From contig JAIERK010000143.1 in NCBI GenBank assembly GCA_019746975.1, positions 1 through 64,000 on the forward strand: DNA of 64,000 bases, read 5' to 3'. Shown here one piece after another: positions 39,931 through 51,265 of this stretch (position 1 is its first letter; every line of letters starts with the position of its first letter). A program made the position numbers and the translations under genes. This DNA is from Candidatus Obscuribacterales bacterium (lineage in GTDB: Bacteria > Cyanobacteriota > Vampirovibrionia > Obscuribacterales > Obscuribacteraceae). Below the pieces are notes generated by a model that worked only from the letters and a program-made list of their open reading frames with translations, did no database searches and was not told where the DNA came from.

Positions 39931-41787
39931 CTACTTGGCGCCCTTCGGCTGCTTGGGCAATGCAGCAGAGAAGAACGAGTTCTTGAGAATCATCGGCATG
40001 TCGTTCTGGTGTGATTCTCGTTCGAGGTCTACTTCAGAAACTAAGACCGATGGTGTCACAACGCTATTACCCGTGGTGCCGTACGCACCGGAAAAACGGA
40101 CTGTATAAGCGGCGCTGTCATCACCTGTGGTGACAATGTCGCGGAATAACCGGTGAGACAATCTTGTGAAGTTACCCCCTCTGACTAGCTCCTCTTTGCC
40201 ATCCTTTACGTAAACCTTGTAGAGCAACGTCGGCTCGGATATGTGTACTTCGCGCCCGCTGTCCATGAAGAAGGCACTTCTTCCCGGGGTAATCGTACTC
40301 AGGACTCCTGACGAGATGTGACGGACGATGACCACATAGTCCAGTCCTTCTTCCTTACCCAATTCGATTAACCGTTCCTTGAGTTTGGAAAGCGATTCTT
40401 CTTTTGACGATTCAATAAATAACTGACTCGTCGACGCGTTACCATCAATCCAGTGTCCGTTGCTTTCTTTGACATCGCGACTTGGCGATCTTCCTGAACA
40501 AAATGTTTTCAGATATCCATTGTCTACAAGGGTCACTCGCTGCGCTTTTACTCCTTCGTCGTCGACCGCGTATCCACCCTTGAGCTGCTGCCCTTTGTAG
40601 TCGAGAGCTGTCGGATCGTCGATCACCGAGATGAAGTTCGGTAAGATTCTTCTGCCGATTTTATCGTTTTCGGGTCCCCACTTCGCAGTAAGAGCTGCTA
40701 CCGAGTCGGATTTGTTAGTCAGTCGCGGTGCCAGAGCTTGGGCGAACAACTCCGCAGCGGCCTGCTTCTCGAACAAAATAGGACCTCGGTAGTCGTCAAT
40801 CGGTTTTGCGTCAGTCAACGCTTTTACTCTTTTAGCCAGGTCTCGAGCCTTTGCATCGATCTCCGTTTTTGTTGGAATTGCGTCCGGATCTCTTGCGGCG
40901 AACAGTTCGAAATCCGTAACACGCATGCCGTCTTCGGCTTGACCATTGGCGCTGATGCCTAGCAGGATTCCGTGATTTCCTTCTCTGTTGATCGAGCCTT
41001 CAGAATTAGCAAACCATCGAGTTCTTACGCGACCAATCATGGCGACTGTAGAGTCAACCACCGCTGGATAATCTCTGAACACCCCTGATATATCTCGAAC
41101 GGTTTTCTTCCAGCGTTCTTTGTCGAGTTCGAGATTGCTTGCCGGTTTCATTGACACAACCGGCTCTGTTCTGCACATTGAGTCCGGCAGATCTTCGACC
41201 TTTTTTTGCTGCAGGATAGCTTTTTTACTTTCCAGTCCTTCGATTGCGCGTTTATATTTGTAATCGCTGTCCAACCATAATGCATGACGAATCGCATCGT
41301 AGTTGTCGTCAATGCAGCACATGCCGCTGCCGCCACGCAAGCCGAAAATAGCCATCAATCCTCGTCGGTTCGAGCTGTCGAGTTTGTAGTCGCCTACCCT
41401 GACGTCGCTACTGATGGTTCGATAGCGCGAATCGTTGACCTGATCGAGCGCTCCAAAACTTCCGTAGACGGAAAACTGTTGTGAATCGGTAGCCAGATAC
41501 GAGACAAAATAGGGGTTGTCATTGCCCTTGATTTTTAACTCGGTTATGCTGCGGAGCAGTTCATCCTCCATAGCTTTGCTTATGGTGTCGTCAGCAAACT
41601 TAGAGGCGTTTTTTATCGAAACCGTTGGTGCGAGCTTCGGTGGCGTAGCCGTGGTGTCTTTCTTCTCCGATTTGACTGCTGTTGGTTTCGGTTGCTCATT
41701 CTTGGCTGGTGGTGCGCCCTTTGCCGCGGCTCCGGCGCACAGGAGAAGCATCATCGAGATTGTTGCGAGCTGTTTTGCTTTTCTCAT
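39931..41787 (-). CDS. Exported TldE/PmbA-like protein
   Basis: A 618-residue exported member of the TldD/PmbA family; the signal peptide ends CAGAAAKG. The family's second half is recognisable (LPNFISVIDDPTALDYKG, then GVKAQRVTLVDNGYLKTF and SNGHWIDGNAS). At the place of the zinc motif it has KQAAAELFAQALAPRL, without HExxxH, as in TldE, the non-catalytic subunit of TldD/TldE. The ATG at 41787 lies 2 bases after the stop of the TldD-like gene and its ribosome-binding site overlaps that stop. It most likely pairs with that protein. Confidence 0.88.
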   Translation of the reverse strand: MRKAKQLATISMMLLLCAGAAAKGAPPAKNEQPKPTAVKSEKKDTTATPPKLAPTVSIKNASKFADDTISKAMEDELLRSITELKIKGNDNPYFVSYLATDSQQFSVYGSFGALDQVNDSRYRTISSDVRVGDYKLDSSNRRGLMAIFGLRGGSGMCCIDDNYDAIRHALWLDSDYKYKRAIEGLESKKAILQQKKVEDLPDSMCRTEPVVSMKPASNLELDKERWKKTVRDISGVFRDYPAVVDSTVAMIGRVRTRWFANSEGSINREGNHGILLGISANGQAEDGMRVTDFELFAARDPDAIPTKTEIDAKARDLAKRVKALTDAKPIDDYRGPILFEKQAAAELFAQALAPRLTNKSDSVAALTAKWGPENDKIGRRILPNFISVIDDPTALDYKGQQLKGGYAVDDEGVKAQRVTLVDNGYLKTFCSGRSPSRDVKESNGHWIDGNASTSQLFIESSKEESLSKLKERLIELGKEEGLDYVVIVRHISSGVLSTITPGRSAFFMDSGREVHISEPTLLYKVYVKDGKEELVRGGNFTRLSHRLFRDIVTTGDDSAAYTVRFSGAYGTTGNSVVTPSVLVSEVDLERESHQNDMPMILKNSFFSAALPKQPKGAK

Positions 41788-41789
41788 TC

Positions 41790-43658
41790 TTACTTCCCTT
41801 TAAATGGATTGATGCCGTTTGCAGTGGGTGGAGGCAGGATTGGCGGCTTGTCTTGCTCTTTCCACTCTCGCGCCACTTCCACGGTCTTGACCAACAGACT
41901 TGGTGATGTCGCTGATACGGGTACCCATCCCGACTCTGCACCACATACGCCACTAAACGTGTCGACATCGTCAGCGGAACACATAATCGTTTCTAGTGAT
42001 GCCAGCGGTGTTCCGACCAGGTTGACGCCCCTCAGGAGTTCATCAGGCTTTCCGTCAGCCCAAACGCGGGTGACTCGAAGTGGAAGCAATTGAAATGATT
42101 GGGGCATAAATGCTTGGGTCAGAGCAAAACCGCCGGCGATTTCGTCAAAGATAAGTCCATAAGGCTTGCCTTGTTTCTTTGCCTCGTCTACTAGTTGCTT
42201 CTTGAGCGTTTCGTAATCAACCTTTTTGCTGGAGTCGACGATCAGGTTGCCCTGCCGCGCGACCGGTTTATTGCCAGGCTCGCATCGACAGTGCCCGTTG
42301 GAGTGATTGAAGGCGTTAATGGGACTTCTGCCCATGAGGAAGTTCTTCAGCACCCCACTCTCGACTATGGTCACCCTTTGAGCCGGGACGCCTTCATTGT
42401 CGAATTTGTAATAACCAACAAGTGGACGATCAGAGATTTTGGAGAGCGTTGGATCGTCATAAACACTTATGAAATCAGGCATGATCTTCTGATTTACTTT
42501 CTTCGCGAAAGTGCGACCTTCGTCTTCGTCTTTTTGTCTGTGACCTTCTACTCGATGACCCAAGACTTCATGAAAGAATACTCCCGACGCTCGCCCACGT
42601 AGAATTGCTGGACCGACATAAGGCTCTGCCACAGGCGCCTTGCGAAGGCTGATGATTGAGTCAGCTAGCTTTCTTATTTTTTTTTCGATGGTAGCATCGT
42701 CAGGAAGGTCTTTCGGATCGAATACATCGATGCTGTCATACAAAAACAAAACCATACCGTCGTTAGCAATCGTGCTTACGTTCGTGGAGATTCGAGCCTG
42801 CCGATCCTGGGTTCGCAGTTTCGTTCCTTCGCTCGTTGTGACGTAACGCTCGTCCAGATCGATGTCCAGGCTGACGTTTGACTCTGTAATTTCCGGGTAC
42901 TCTTTATAGATTGCCGATAGGCGCCGCAAGCGCTCGCGCCACGATTCCGAATCGATCGTTGGTTTTTGCGCTTTCTCCAGGCTCACCACTGATGGTGCGG
43001 CAGAAAAATCAGCCGATTGATCTTCTTCGATCACTTTGACGGTTCGATTCGCTTGAACTTGAATATAGTCGCGCTGCGCCCGTTTAAAGGCGTCATCGGT
43101 TACTAACCAAAGCGCTGTCCTGATTGCCGGCTCATCATCATCGATTGAGAACTCAACTGGCGCTCTGGAGTCTAGGAAATACCTTTCAGTCGGGAGGTCG
43201 AAATCGCCGCGCAACTTATGACTGCTGTCCACCTGCATGTCGCCGACGCGGGCTTCTACATCGAGTATGCGACGTCGGCTCTGGCTGTCGCCGTCGATAG
43301 CACCGAACGAGGCTGTGAGGTTGAGATCTTCTGTGTCGTAAACCCGATATCCGAGGAAATACAAGGGTGTAGAGCCCTTCGCCTTGAGACTCTGATAGCT
43401 TCGTTCCAGCTCCTTGCTCATTGCGTCGAGTAGAACATCGCCCGTGACACCCAGCGTCGCGGCTTCTCGTCCACGCTGCAGCGTGCCAGGCGACGTAATC
43501 GGGCTTGGCGACCCACTGTTACTCTGCCCTTGAACAGCTCCGACCGCCTGCGTGATTGCGCCTGCATCCGCCGAAGCACGACACTGGAACATCAAGGAGA
43601 GGCTGAGGCTGATCCAGCTGACAATCAGGATCTTCGACCCGTTTTCTGTTAGATGCAT
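41790..43658 (-). CDS. Exported TldD-like metallopeptidase
   Basis: A 622-residue exported TldD-family protein; the signal peptide ends FQCRASADA. The zinc-binding HExxxH is intact as FFHEVLGHRVEGHR (His363, Glu364, His368), preceded by GPAILRGRASG and followed by MPDFISVYDDPTL, GVPAQRVTIVESGVL and SNGHCRCEPG. TldD/TldE proteases of E. coli are cytoplasmic and cut unfolded peptides such as pro-microcin; here both subunits carry signal peptides, so they would act in the periplasm. ATG at 43658, weak ribosome-binding site. Confidence 0.9.
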   Translation of the reverse strand: MHLTENGSKILIVSWISLSLSLMFQCRASADAGAITQAVGAVQGQSNSGSPSPITSPGTLQRGREAATLGVTGDVLLDAMSKELERSYQSLKAKGSTPLYFLGYRVYDTEDLNLTASFGAIDGDSQSRRRILDVEARVGDMQVDSSHKLRGDFDLPTERYFLDSRAPVEFSIDDDEPAIRTALWLVTDDAFKRAQRDYIQVQANRTVKVIEEDQSADFSAAPSVVSLEKAQKPTIDSESWRERLRRLSAIYKEYPEITESNVSLDIDLDERYVTTSEGTKLRTQDRQARISTNVSTIANDGMVLFLYDSIDVFDPKDLPDDATIEKKIRKLADSIISLRKAPVAEPYVGPAILRGRASGVFFHEVLGHRVEGHRQKDEDEGRTFAKKVNQKIMPDFISVYDDPTLSKISDRPLVGYYKFDNEGVPAQRVTIVESGVLKNFLMGRSPINAFNHSNGHCRCEPGNKPVARQGNLIVDSSKKVDYETLKKQLVDEAKKQGKPYGLIFDEIAGGFALTQAFMPQSFQLLPLRVTRVWADGKPDELLRGVNLVGTPLASLETIMCSADDVDTFSGVCGAESGWVPVSATSPSLLVKTVEVAREWKEQDKPPILPPPTANGINPFKGK

Positions 43659-46234: not shown

Positions 46235-48214
46235 TTAGTTGCCTTCGGAGCACAGGTAGTCATACGAACAATACAGACCCACGAGATACATAATTAAAGC
46301 AATGTAGGCTGGCAGCAGGTGCATGACGTGCGTGTATCCGATTGCAAAATGAATGCCGAAGACAGCGAAAAACCCTGGCAAGCCTCCGAGAAGAAGCGCC
46401 CACCAGATCCAGCGATTTCCTTGACGGAATCCATACATCGAAGTCAATAATTCCACCGTACCCACAGCCCACAGGCACCCTCCAAACGATGCCCTATCGT
46501 GTGCTATCAGAGGTAGCATATGAGGACCTACGTTCTCCAATTGGCTCCGAGTGGTGCCCATGTATAGTAAATCTTCATTGACGAATATTGTCGAACAACC
46601 AACGCACGCGATGGTAATTCCAGCAGTTAGCAACCCTGCTCCAATCATCACGAACATCAACTGACCGATCATTCCATTCTTCCAGGCGACAGAGTTTGTC
46701 GAGTTGGGCGATTGTTCTGCCACGAATTGGGGGCGATGTGTGACGCCCCATATGAAAAATGGTAGAACCAGAACACAAACAAGTGCATGCAGCGGATCGA
46801 AATACTTGAAGCCCAGATATAGAAAAAATGCCATGAATCCGGCAGTCAGCCCTGCTACTTCTGTGGTATAGGCCCAGCGGTGGCGGTTCCTCACACCAAA
46901 GAAAGCAACTAAGAAAAATAATACTGCGCCCGACAGAGAGGTGCCGCCTAAGGTGACTCTGTCATGACTCATGAACTGAAGCAGATGCGGATTGATATCC
47001 GGTATCTTGCTCATCGTGACACCAAGATAGGCTTCATCGTAAGGCAAAAGCACTCGCGTCAATCCAACGCAGATGACACTTACTGCTGCGATTATCAATC
47101 CCGTCGCCACGACTGTGAAAGAAAGCCAACCCTCAGTTAGTGTGGTTACGGATAAGTTTAGAGTCGATGGTATTGTGCCACCAGAACGGAACGTCAAGAA
47201 CTCGTTGATGCGTTTTCCCAGTCCAGGCCCGGAAAATACCAAACCACTATGGAGTTGGAGTAAGTCGGCACCGCTTTCGATGAAATCAAGCGCATCTAGT
47301 GGCTCGATGATACCGCCTGATCCGATCACAATCTTTTCAGGAGACATGCCTTTTAATTTCTTGACGATCTCAATCGACCTGCTCTTAACCGGCTTTCCAA
47401 ATACCCGGTAAGTCTCATTCGGAGCTTGGACAGGCTGTATCTCGCCGACCATACCACCACCCACAACAAAGCCCTGAATCGAGGTCTTGGTTGCGCTCGA
47501 TACAATCTCGTCTATTTTTCTTTCTCCTTCACTCGGTGACACTAGCACGAAAAGCGAGGCGGCTGATGGACTCTGTTTTCCCTGGAGTACGCCCGATACT
47601 GCGCTAAAAATCTTAGTAAGCTCTTCTGATCCCCAGCTTTCATGAAACCAGCGAGTGTCTATCGTGATGAATGTTGCGTTCGCGGCGAACTGTTTCGCTA
47701 GTTTTTGCAACTCAACCAATGTGTTTTCTAAATCTAAAGATTGATTCGCTATTCTTACGCCAAAGTTAATTGAATGATTCTCCGTCGCGAGCTTCCTTCG
47801 TGCTTTGTCCAACTCTCGTGATACCAAATCCGCACCAGGATTTTCGGGAATATTCAAATATCTAAGTGAAGTACTAGATTGATCGCGATAAATTTCCTTG
47901 GAGGACGGTATTACAGGTGATACCGTGATTGGCCCAATCTCAATGAAGCCCAATCCGAATTGAGCGAAGGCCACTATACTACCTGAATCGAATACGAGAC
48001 CGGTACCCAGTCCCACGCGACTGACCCAGTCCACGTCCAGGAGCCGAAGCGGCGGTTGGGTCGGGCGCATGTGTCCGATCAGATTGAGGATATTTGTCCC
48101 CATCGGCAGATTAGAAAATCCGCCGGTCGCCGAGAGCGTTAAATCCCTTGCTTTGCGACCAGGCAGTCGGAAAAGCAATGGCTTGAAAACAGGTATGTAG
48201 CTCCAGTCTGGCAT
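46235..48214 (-). CDS. Dihydroorotate-dehydrogenase-like domain fused to a duplicated membrane module
   Basis: A 659-residue protein. Residues ~1-340 follow the class 2 DHODH layout: LFRLPGRKARDLTL, RVGLGTGLVFDSG, LGFIEIGPITVSP, and at the end KIVIGSGGIIEPLDALDF with GADLLQLHSGLVFSGPGL, the FMN phosphate-binding part. The usual catalytic NVSSPN is replaced by ITIDTRWFHESW and the KxxP lysine by LFVLVSPS, so the DHODH reaction is doubtful. Residues ~365-489 and ~518-648 are two copies of a four-helix membrane unit sharing CVG, PHLL/PHML and HDR-x3-GG. ATG at 48214 (TTG 48220 also in frame). Role unknown. Confidence 0.75.
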   Translation of the reverse strand: MPDWSYIPVFKPLLFRLPGRKARDLTLSATGGFSNLPMGTNILNLIGHMRPTQPPLRLLDVDWVSRVGLGTGLVFDSGSIVAFAQFGLGFIEIGPITVSPVIPSSKEIYRDQSSTSLRYLNIPENPGADLVSRELDKARRKLATENHSINFGVRIANQSLDLENTLVELQKLAKQFAANATFITIDTRWFHESWGSEELTKIFSAVSGVLQGKQSPSAASLFVLVSPSEGERKIDEIVSSATKTSIQGFVVGGGMVGEIQPVQAPNETYRVFGKPVKSRSIEIVKKLKGMSPEKIVIGSGGIIEPLDALDFIESGADLLQLHSGLVFSGPGLGKRINEFLTFRSGGTIPSTLNLSVTTLTEGWLSFTVVATGLIIAAVSVICVGLTRVLLPYDEAYLGVTMSKIPDINPHLLQFMSHDRVTLGGTSLSGAVLFFLVAFFGVRNRHRWAYTTEVAGLTAGFMAFFLYLGFKYFDPLHALVCVLVLPFFIWGVTHRPQFVAEQSPNSTNSVAWKNGMIGQLMFVMIGAGLLTAGITIACVGCSTIFVNEDLLYMGTTRSQLENVGPHMLPLIAHDRASFGGCLWAVGTVELLTSMYGFRQGNRWIWWALLLGGLPGFFAVFGIHFAIGYTHVMHLLPAYIALIMYLVGLYCSYDYLCSEGN

Positions 48215-48303
48215 AGACAATATTTTGTCATGGACCGGCGGAGCAGCGTATACTGATTGTACGTGAATTTATTCCCCCAGCGGTACGGAGATTCGGTACT
48301 GTT

Positions 48304-48744
48304 ATGACTTATTCGCATACTCAAATTGTGCCCTCTGGAGCCCTTGTCGGTGTTGGTGCACTGGCCACTGTTGGTGCACTGTTAGTGCCTGGCAAGTTGA
48401 AGTTGATTGGCGGCGCGCTCGTGGCCGGTTTGATGAGTACTTTTCGATCTCTTACTGTTTCGGTCAATGAACATGAGATTGTTGTTCGATTCGGAGAGTG
48501 GCTGGAGGCGAAACACATTCCGCTCGTCGCCATAAAGGGCTGCGCGACAGCTAGAATGAGTCCTCTCCACGGTTGGGGCATTCACTTCGTCGGCAATGGT
48601 TGGCTATACAATGTCTATGGACTCGATGCTGTCGAGGTCGAGCTCCTGGACGGAAGCAAGACCTTCATAGGTACTGACCAGCCGCGCGCCCTGTGCGAAG
48701 CGATTATGAAAGAGATGGTCATGATGAGCCCGTCGGATCAATAA
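48304..48744 (+). CDS. Small membrane protein with PH-like domain
   Basis: A 146-residue protein. Two hydrophobic segments (ALVGVGALATVGALLV, LIGGALVAGLMST) are followed by a beta-rich domain: VSVNEHEIVVRFGEW, IPLVAIKGC, GWGIHFVGNGWLYNV, and VEVELLDGSKTFIGTDQPRA. This pattern is that of bacterial PH-like membrane proteins. ATG at 48304. It diverges from the DHODH-like gene with 89 bases between, so the two may share regulation. Confidence 0.7.
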   Translation: MTYSHTQIVPSGALVGVGALATVGALLVPGKLKLIGGALVAGLMSTFRSLTVSVNEHEIVVRFGEWLEAKHIPLVAIKGCATARMSPLHGWGIHFVGNGWLYNVYGLDAVEVELLDGSKTFIGTDQPRALCEAIMKEMVMMSPSDQ

Positions 48745-48780
48745 GACCCAATTGACGCACTCTCATGCAATGAGAACGAT

Positions 48781-49050
48781 GTGAGCGGGAAGCTTTCTTG
48801 TCAAACGGTAAATCGATATCGAATAAAGTGCTGTGGAGAAATGCACAGCCTTTGCCAAGTTGGCAGACATCTCTCGGAAGTGAACGGTGTGAGCGGGAAG
48901 CTTTCCTGTCAAACGGTAAATCGATATCGAATAAAGTGCTGTGGAGAAATGCACAGCCTTTGCCTAGTTGGCAAACGTCTCTCGGAAGTGAACGGTGTGA
49001 GTGGGAAGCTTTTCTGTCAAACGGTAAATCGACATCGATATAAATTCGCG
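48781..49050. repeat. 108-bp tandem repeat, two and a half units, each with the palindrome
   Basis: Units start at 48781, 48889 and 48997 (GTGAGCGGGAAGCTTT / GTGAGTGGGAAGCTTT). The first two are nearly identical over 108 bases; the third is partial and diverges after ~50. Each contains TCAAACGGTAAATCGA and the palindrome centre (48813-48822, 48921-48930, 49029-49038), and the first two contain TTTGCCAAGTTGGCAG or its variant. The repeat shows that the dispersed palindrome is part of a longer unit. Confidence 0.95.
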
Positions 49051-49131
49051 CGCAAAATGCTGTCCACCGCAGGCAAACAGACTCTGTAAACCTCACTTGC
49101 CTCAACGACGTGAATTAGTCACGCCTAGCTC

Positions 49132-49730: not shown

Positions 49731-51265
49731 ATGACACCAACTATCGTGACTAAAAAAGCATCTCGACTACTTGAATTCTCGTTGCTTTCCTTCTCTGGAC
49801 GCACCTGCTTGCAATGGATTCGATGGTAACGTGTTTGATGCCGGCGATGCCCGGCTCTTTCTTGTCGGATACAGAGCGGGTTACCTGGATAGCTGAGCAT
49901 CCCTGGCAGTGGCATTTAGGGTGGATTCCCTGGCACCTGGCCGCCCTATCCGATCTGGTTCTGGCATTCGCGCTAGTAAAAACAAGTTGGATTCCTAAGC
50001 TCCCGTCATTGTTCGTTCTGGTGATGACTGTCCTTGCTGTATGTGTGGAACAGCCGAACGAAATAATCTGGAATCTGGAAGCAGTTCGTCAGGCCTCGCT
50101 GTTCTTGGAGTCGGGCAATTTGGCTCAATTTAGGGGATTTGAGTCGAGTGTTTACCTACCGGTTTGTGTATTAGCGGCGACTTTCTATGCGATCGCGGCG
50201 ATTGGTTGGAGCTGTTGTTTTGCATTTTCGAACACCTGGTCACGCACGTTGACAGTTCTCTCCGCCGTGAACTGGCCTCTCATGGCTTTGGCAGCTCTGG
50301 CCCTTGTTTAACGTACCACTCGCTGTGGTCACTGTTGCCGCCGGAATCGGTTTCAATATTTTGGCACTGTGGATGGTGCTCGTCACGGAATGTGTTCTAA
50401 AGCGCTCGAGACCCGATGAAAAATATGGTCGCATGGTGCCGTGGAAACATCCTGACACAGGGCTACTTGGTAAATTCCTTTCCGTCATAGCTAATAGCAG
50501 GATGCTACAGTACTTGGGAGAGTATGTAAAACCAGTTGTTCTAGTCAGTGATATAGAAGATGTTGTCTAATCAATTATCTGGTTAACGCAGAAACTGTTG
50601 AACAGCTCGTGCCACCAGGACTTACTCTTCAGAAGATCGGTCCGGATCAGCGCTATGCGCTGTTTTCCGTATTGACATATTCACACGGAAATTTCGGTCC
50701 TCGTTTTTTCGGACCGCTGCGAAAATTTTGTCCTTCGCCAGTTCAAAGCAATTGGCGTATTCATGTTACAGATCCCAGTGGCGCTCAGGGCATTTACTTC
50801 GTCAGCACGGCTGTCAGTGACACGCTGCTGGCCTTGGTGGCTCGATGGCTCTCAGATGGTGTCCCTATGCATGTGTTGGGAAAAGGTGCGGTTAGCATTA
50901 ATGAGGTTCTTGATCTGCGACTCGAACCCGGACGAGGTTCCGCACCGCATCTGGAGGCAACCCTGCGTCCATCGAAGATGCCCACACTGTCTGGCATCTG
51001 GAATCAAGCATTTGTGGATTACGAACATTTCCTCGCCTATTGCGTACCAAAGGATCGAGCGATGTCTTCTCAGCGCTGGTACGAGCGAACTACGAAGCAA
51101 GAGATCAATCTGAACATTGCGCTGTCTGACTGCATGCCTCTTGAAGGGAGTGTTCACTCGCGCACGATCAACGAACTTCTTGGCGAAGCCATTGCGCCGA
51201 TTTGTCTTCGAGTACCGACAGTGAATTTTGTCTTCGACCGCGTTGAACGGAATCCATGGAACTGA
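49731..51265 (+). pseudogene. Membrane protein with C-terminal DUF2071-like domain, three frameshifts
   Basis: Four plus-strand frames join into one protein. MTPTIVTKKASRLL (ATG 49731) continues, after a one-base loss near 49765, as ILVAFLLWTHLLAMDS with four membrane segments to PLMALAALALV. A frameshift near 50303 leads to FNVPLAVVTVAAG and VKPVVLVSDIEDVV. A third near 50568 leads to INYLVNAETVEQLVPPG and a soluble domain with SHGNFGPRFFGPLRKF and SPVQSNWRIHV to 51265. That domain resembles DUF2071/acetoacetate-decarboxylase-like proteins. The joins are natural, so this was one ~510-residue gene, now broken unless the indels are sequence errors. Confidence 0.75.

Follow-up and report, generated by a model that had tools for sequence, protein, structure and literature searches.

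What is the function of a protein in which a class 2 dihydroorotate dehydrogenase (DHODH) lacking its catalytic residues is joined to a duplicated membrane module? The question is raised by a gene in a stretch of 64,000 nucleotides (the window) from the 7.5 Mb genome of a Candidatus Obscuribacterales bacterium. A preliminary description of this DNA had proposed a DHODH-like domain fused to such a module; the coordinates that it gave are correct, and the gene lies on the minus strand (Table 1). The start codon was taken as the ATG where the family-conserved N-terminus MPDW[ST]Y begins, an in-frame TTG being present upstream at 48220. A class 2 DHODH fold is predicted for residues 1-345, followed at residues 359-655 by two homologous four-helix membrane units; the fusion is borne out by a match to PF01180, the fold model and the alignment of the two units with each other.

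Table 1. Position of the fusion gene and its parts in the window
Feature	Coordinates	Strand	Description
Whole CDS	46235..48214	-	659 aa; ATG start at 48214, stop at 46235-46237
N-terminal segment, residues 1-50	48065..48214	-	MPDWSYxPxFKPLLF...; equivalent of the class 2 DHODH membrane-docking N-terminus
Central DHODH-like barrel, residues 56-290	47345..48049	-	Equivalents of catalytic/ligand residues all replaced; drifting
FMN-phosphate end of barrel, residues 291-343	47186..47344	-	Retained; GSGGIIEPLDAL...GADLLQLHSGLVFSGPGLGKRINE; family signature PGLPKRxNE
Membrane unit 1, residues 359-509	46688..47140	-	Four TM helices; invariant D393, H417-D418-R419, D473, H476
Membrane unit 2, residues 510-659	46238..46687	-	Four TM helices; invariant D548, H572-D573-R574, H622, Y627, H632

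The PF01180 match spans residues 60-338 (E 5.8e-19), and no other credible Pfam family was found in the 659-residue protein. NCBIfam models of quinone-dependent DHODH cover residues 8-341 (best E 6.4e-37) with scores far under every curated cut-off, the best model giving 127 bits against a required 267. The fold itself rests on prediction: the AlphaFold model, computed from a 56-row alignment, has a pLDDT of 92.1 and a pTM of 0.91, and its top Foldseek matches are class 2 DHODHs (E. coli 7t5k, target-normalised TM 0.84, 23 % identity). Profile and model together place the soluble half in class 2, with both the barrel fold and the N-terminal docking helices present.

Class 2 DHODHs contact the substrate and the flavin ring through Lys66, Asn111, Asn172, Asn177, Lys217 and Asn246 (E. 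coli numbering). We aligned 82 family members (the window protein, 80 from genome contigs and one from a plasmid) alongside 18 canonical PyrD proteins from the same order, all of which have the full set of catalytic and ligand residues. Among the 82 family members K66, N177 and N246 are each kept once and N111, N172 and K217 never. The catalytic base is a serine in class 2 enzymes and a cysteine in class 1 (PMC8520639). The S[SC]PN motif is found in none of the 82 aligned family members, the window protein reading ITIDTRWF where the canonical N-x-S-[SC]-P-N-T stands; a Ser or Cys falls in the catalytic column of 11 of the 82, in a region that is poorly aligned there. The alignment confirms that the catalytic Ser block and Lys, first suspected to be missing from this one protein, are indeed lost throughout the family, and it rules out that the catalytic residues are present at shifted positions.

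The FMN-binding end, by comparison, is retained as previously described. Its phosphate-binding loops (G268, GG[IV] and SGxVxxGP) are kept in most or all of the 82 members: G268 in 76, the two glycines of GG in 63 and 77, and GP in all 82, with His replacing Tyr318 and Ser replacing Thr319 within them. Mean pairwise identity is sharply uneven along the protein, with 65 % at the N-terminus, 36 % in the central barrel, 63 % at the phosphate end and 60-61 % in the membrane units, suggesting that the docking and phosphate ends are under selection and the reaction pocket is not. Judged by its residues, the DHODH half is a pseudoenzyme and the fusion protein cannot be the pyrimidine enzyme that at least one record calls it.

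The carriers of the fusion gene have other candidates for that role. Elsewhere in the genome studied here lie genes for a canonical PyrD and for one more protein with a DHO_dh domain, and a strong DHO_dh-family enzyme is present in each of the ten other carriers tested; pyrimidine synthesis therefore does not depend on the fusion. Separately, we observed that in 18/18 canonical class-2-like PyrD proteins from this order (L109:1396-2499, minus strand, in the genome studied here, plus L005-L018 and L110-L112) a Cys stands where class 2 enzymes have their catalytic Ser (SCPNT). Fungal Cys exceptions at this position go with anaerobic function (PMC8520639).

The membrane half is an internal duplication, as had been claimed. 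Units 1 and 2 align over 142 residues with 26 % identity (BLASTP E 5e-22), hhalign gives a probability of 99.3 % (E 1.3e-20), and the motifs CVG, PHLL or PHML, and HDR each occur in both units. The AlphaFold model of this half contains eight long hydrophobic helices plus short interfacial ones, agreeing with the four helices per unit described before; within each unit, the first and second long helices are linked by two short interfacial helices. Thirteen residues (D393, H417, D418, R419, D473, H476, D548, H572, D573, R574, H622, Y627 and H632) are identical in 80/80 sequences, and the model puts the invariant H417 and H476 on TM2 and TM4, and H572 and H632 on TM6 and TM8. Lys and Arg are abundant in the linkers, in loops 2 and 6 and in the C-tail and nearly absent from loops 3 and 7, so that the side of the membrane that faces the barrel is the more positively charged. 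This charge bias suggests that the barrel and the inter-unit linker are cytosolic and that the D/HDR/H clusters lie at the outer face.

A profile search with the membrane unit, proposed in the preliminary description, returned no credible match in Pfam, NCBIfam or PHROG, and no relative was found among PDB sequences; matches of the membrane profile to RNA polymerase in the PDB were discarded as chance. Foldseek searches of the membrane half gave no match under E 0.1 in the PDB and nothing significant among viral models, and a known membrane fold for the module was rejected on these grounds. The sole listed match with a high probability (0.95) is chain O of PDB 8xqw, with a TM of about 0.45 and an E of 0.23.

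How widespread is this arrangement? Relatives of the fusion protein are encoded by 499 stretches in GTDB genomes. We read the best 80 of the 499, mostly from Bacillota, a selection in which the breadth of the family is unevenly sampled. These 80 come mainly from Paenibacillus, Cohnella, Brevibacillus, Fictibacillus and other Bacilli (Paenibacillaceae, Bacillaceae) and also include one Singulisphaera (Planctomycetota) and three Obscuribacterales. The order of Paenibacillus radicibacter yielded matches in 75 of 201 genomes, and the sample of its phylum one full match among 300; 4 of 294 sampled Planctomycetota and 1 of 386 genomes sampled from the phylum of the window also matched. Within the window's own family 5 of 50 genomes match, one of them merely through an orphan half-unit of 105 residues. 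This ORF (G044, L024:9137-9454, minus strand), matching the first half of membrane unit 2 only, is probably a remnant.

The preliminary description had also raised the possibility that the fusion is limited to this assembly. That possibility fails in view of the GTDB stretches, three relatives in the same GTDB family (Candidatus Obscuribacterales and Obscuribacter) and relatives on plasmids of Cytobacillus spongiae (WP_233811857.1, annotated as "dihydroorotate dehydrogenase") and Mycobacterium branderi (WP_083132801.1, "hypothetical protein"). In the tree the four proteins from Obscuribacterales group in a single clade (100/99) next to those of Bacillota, the deeper forks being weak. A recent local fusion in Obscuribacterales was considered and is unsupported, since the clade sits beside the Bacillota proteins and is not derived from them. 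The layout is not rare, only undescribed: a search of the open-access literature found no paper on such a DHODH-membrane fusion and, in line with the preliminary description, no described protein of this layout.

Both halves are not equally durable. The barrel erodes in Mycobacterium and is absent from a planctomycete protein of 339 residues (L130) that consists of the eight-TM module alone, suggesting that the membrane module is the functional core. The evidence for a barrel-less module comprises this one clean Planctomycetota gene and a second candidate from the same phylum with an in-frame TAG between the two units. In Neobacillus novalis (L104:6001-7806) an in-frame TAG falls precisely where the barrel gives way to the membrane module and is soon followed by an ATG; the gene there is either broken or naturally divided in two.

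The genomic neighbourhood gives few clues. Its neighbours differ from lineage to lineage without any recurrent partner, and the gene often stands by itself; a same-strand gap of 50 bp or less was seen upstream at 6 and downstream at 26 of 79 loci. A DUF2071 neighbour was rejected as a partner, being present in the window and one Paenibacillus with no further recurrence, and a TspO identity considered for one neighbour gene has no Pfam match. The divergent neighbour at 48304-48744 is common to a single relative, G001, among three compared. Two adjacent TldD/PmbA-like metallopeptidase genes (39931-43658, minus strand) likewise stand beside the fusion in G001 only, among the same number of relatives.

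Two other features of the window were noted. The ORFs at 49814-50311 and 50609-51265 match consecutive parts of one 513-residue G001 protein (L021:6140-7681, its C-terminal part DUF2071), suggesting that this gene is broken in the window. Adjoining the fusion gene, positions 48719-49105 hold near-identical tandem repeat units that can be read as ORFs on both strands, with DLPFDRKASHSHRSLPRDVCQLGKGCAFLHSTLFDI repeated on the minus strand.

We tentatively favor, as somewhat short of probable, a non-catalytic domain of DHODH origin, docking or sensing in the cytosol, attached to an unnamed membrane module in which the clusters at the outer face carry the activity. In this scenario a class 2 DHODH gene would have been joined to the duplicated 4+4-helix module and would then have lost its catalytic function. 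The barrel would have remained cytosolic while its substrate and flavin-ring pocket decayed, and the N-terminal segment and phosphate end would have been retained, probably as a docking platform, the latter possibly as a putative site for FMN or another phosphorylated ligand. The working part would be the membrane module, in which each unit would set a D ... HDR ... H cluster at the extracytoplasmic helix ends. Such clusters most likely bind a metal or heme, or a substrate from the extracytoplasmic side or the lipid phase, for redox chemistry, hydrolysis or transport, and the barrel may regulate this activity across the membrane. Against this explanation, the kept phosphate end could hold FMN for redox use by an unusual route, and the gene neighbourhood offers no conserved hint of a pathway.

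An alternative that we regard as unlikely is a flavin-linked membrane oxidoreductase that would hold FMN through its phosphate, take electrons from a donor other than orotate and deliver them either to quinone by way of the N-terminal tunnel or to cofactors within the membrane units. An FMN-binding membrane protein passing electrons to quinone had been suggested before, and of that suggestion the retained phosphate end stands; together with the N-terminal quinone-tunnel segment it is the best conserved part of the soluble half. In each unit the paired invariant histidines of TM2 and TM4 are possible heme ligands, and redox neighbours occur in some lineages, namely a flavohemoglobin-like gene next door at nine Paenibacillus loci and a cytochrome b561/molybdopterin protein at one locus. 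These neighbours are, however, lineage-specific, the Lys and Asn contacts for flavin ring and substrate are gone in nearly all 82 members, and the barrel drifts and is dispensable, being mostly lost in Mycobacterium and absent from the planctomycete protein. Charge bias further places the HDR clusters on the outer face, across the membrane from the barrel and any flavin, making direct electron transfer from flavin to HDR unlikely.

A second possibility, to which we likewise give a low probability, is a permease built of the two parallel 4-TM repeats, with a D/HDR/H site in each and the dead barrel as its cytosolic regulator. The parallel arrangement of the duplicated units and the invariant charged residues within their helices would suit a transporter, as would a gene that is often alone without a fixed partner, and on the Cytobacillus plasmid a chromate transporter is encoded two genes downstream. 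Yet no known transporter fold was matched (Foldseek TM of at most 0.26, E above 0.2), the invariant residues gather at the outer end instead of running through the membrane, and the neighbours suggest no substrate. For the flavin-linked transporter put forward in the preliminary description we found no positive evidence.

It is also conceivable, though again improbable, that the module is a new fold of two parallel four-helix repeats with outward D/HDR/H sites controlled by the dead DHODH as a sensor of flavin or a phospho-ligand. If true, a metabolic enzyme would have taken on a signalling or gating role across the membrane in several phyla.

Still less likely is a metal-dependent hydrolase or transferase that would sit within the membrane and act on a lipid-linked substrate in the outer leaflet. 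The Asp/His-rich clusters (D, HDR and H, with H622/Y627 in unit 2) at the extracytoplasmic helix ends resemble metal or acid-base sites, but neither sequence nor fold relates the module to a membrane enzyme of solved structure, and the set is kept in both repeats although a single site usually suffices for hydrolases. A decayed gene or assembly artefact without function in this genome, as the barrel lacking catalytic residues and some broken relatives (G843, G906 and the split Neobacillus L104) might suggest, is very improbable given the full-length frame, the 57 % identity to G001 (72 % in the membrane half), the partly shared neighbourhood and the invariant residues kept in 80/80 members.

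The non-catalytic docking or sensing domain on a working membrane module that we favor has consequences beyond this locus. Hundreds of bacterial genomes, above all those of soil Paenibacillaceae, carry the family, and at least one record names the protein as a pyrimidine enzyme, which by its residues it cannot be. The family offers a natural series in which an enzyme loses its active site and keeps its membrane-docking and phosphate-binding ends. It also brings to light an eight-helix module whose duplicated polar sites are strictly invariant and for which the profiles and solved structures in the searched libraries offer no explanation.

Compared with known systems, the membrane half resembles chain O of the Chlamydomonas Ycf2-FtsHi complex (8xqw) by Foldseek only, and with an rmsd of 9.6 and 10 % identity this likeness may be chance helical packing. 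The soluble half shares with class 2 DHODH PyrD (PF01180, TIGR01036) the fold over residues 1-340, the N-terminal docking segment and the FMN-phosphate end. Unlike PyrD, the fusion protein adds a membrane half of 300 residues, lacks the equivalents of the catalytic Ser/Cys, the two lysines and the four asparagines, and scores far under the NCBIfam equivalog cut-offs. The layout is shared by the Cytobacillus and Mycobacterium branderi proteins, which have the MPDW[ST]Y start, a DHODH-derived domain and the duplicated D/HDR/H membrane module; the Cytobacillus barrel is shortened, whereas that of M. branderi is mostly gone with the MPDW start kept. The planctomycete protein, encoded downstream of an Asparaginase_2 gene, differs in having no DHODH domain and shares both 4-TM units with their D, HDR and H residues.
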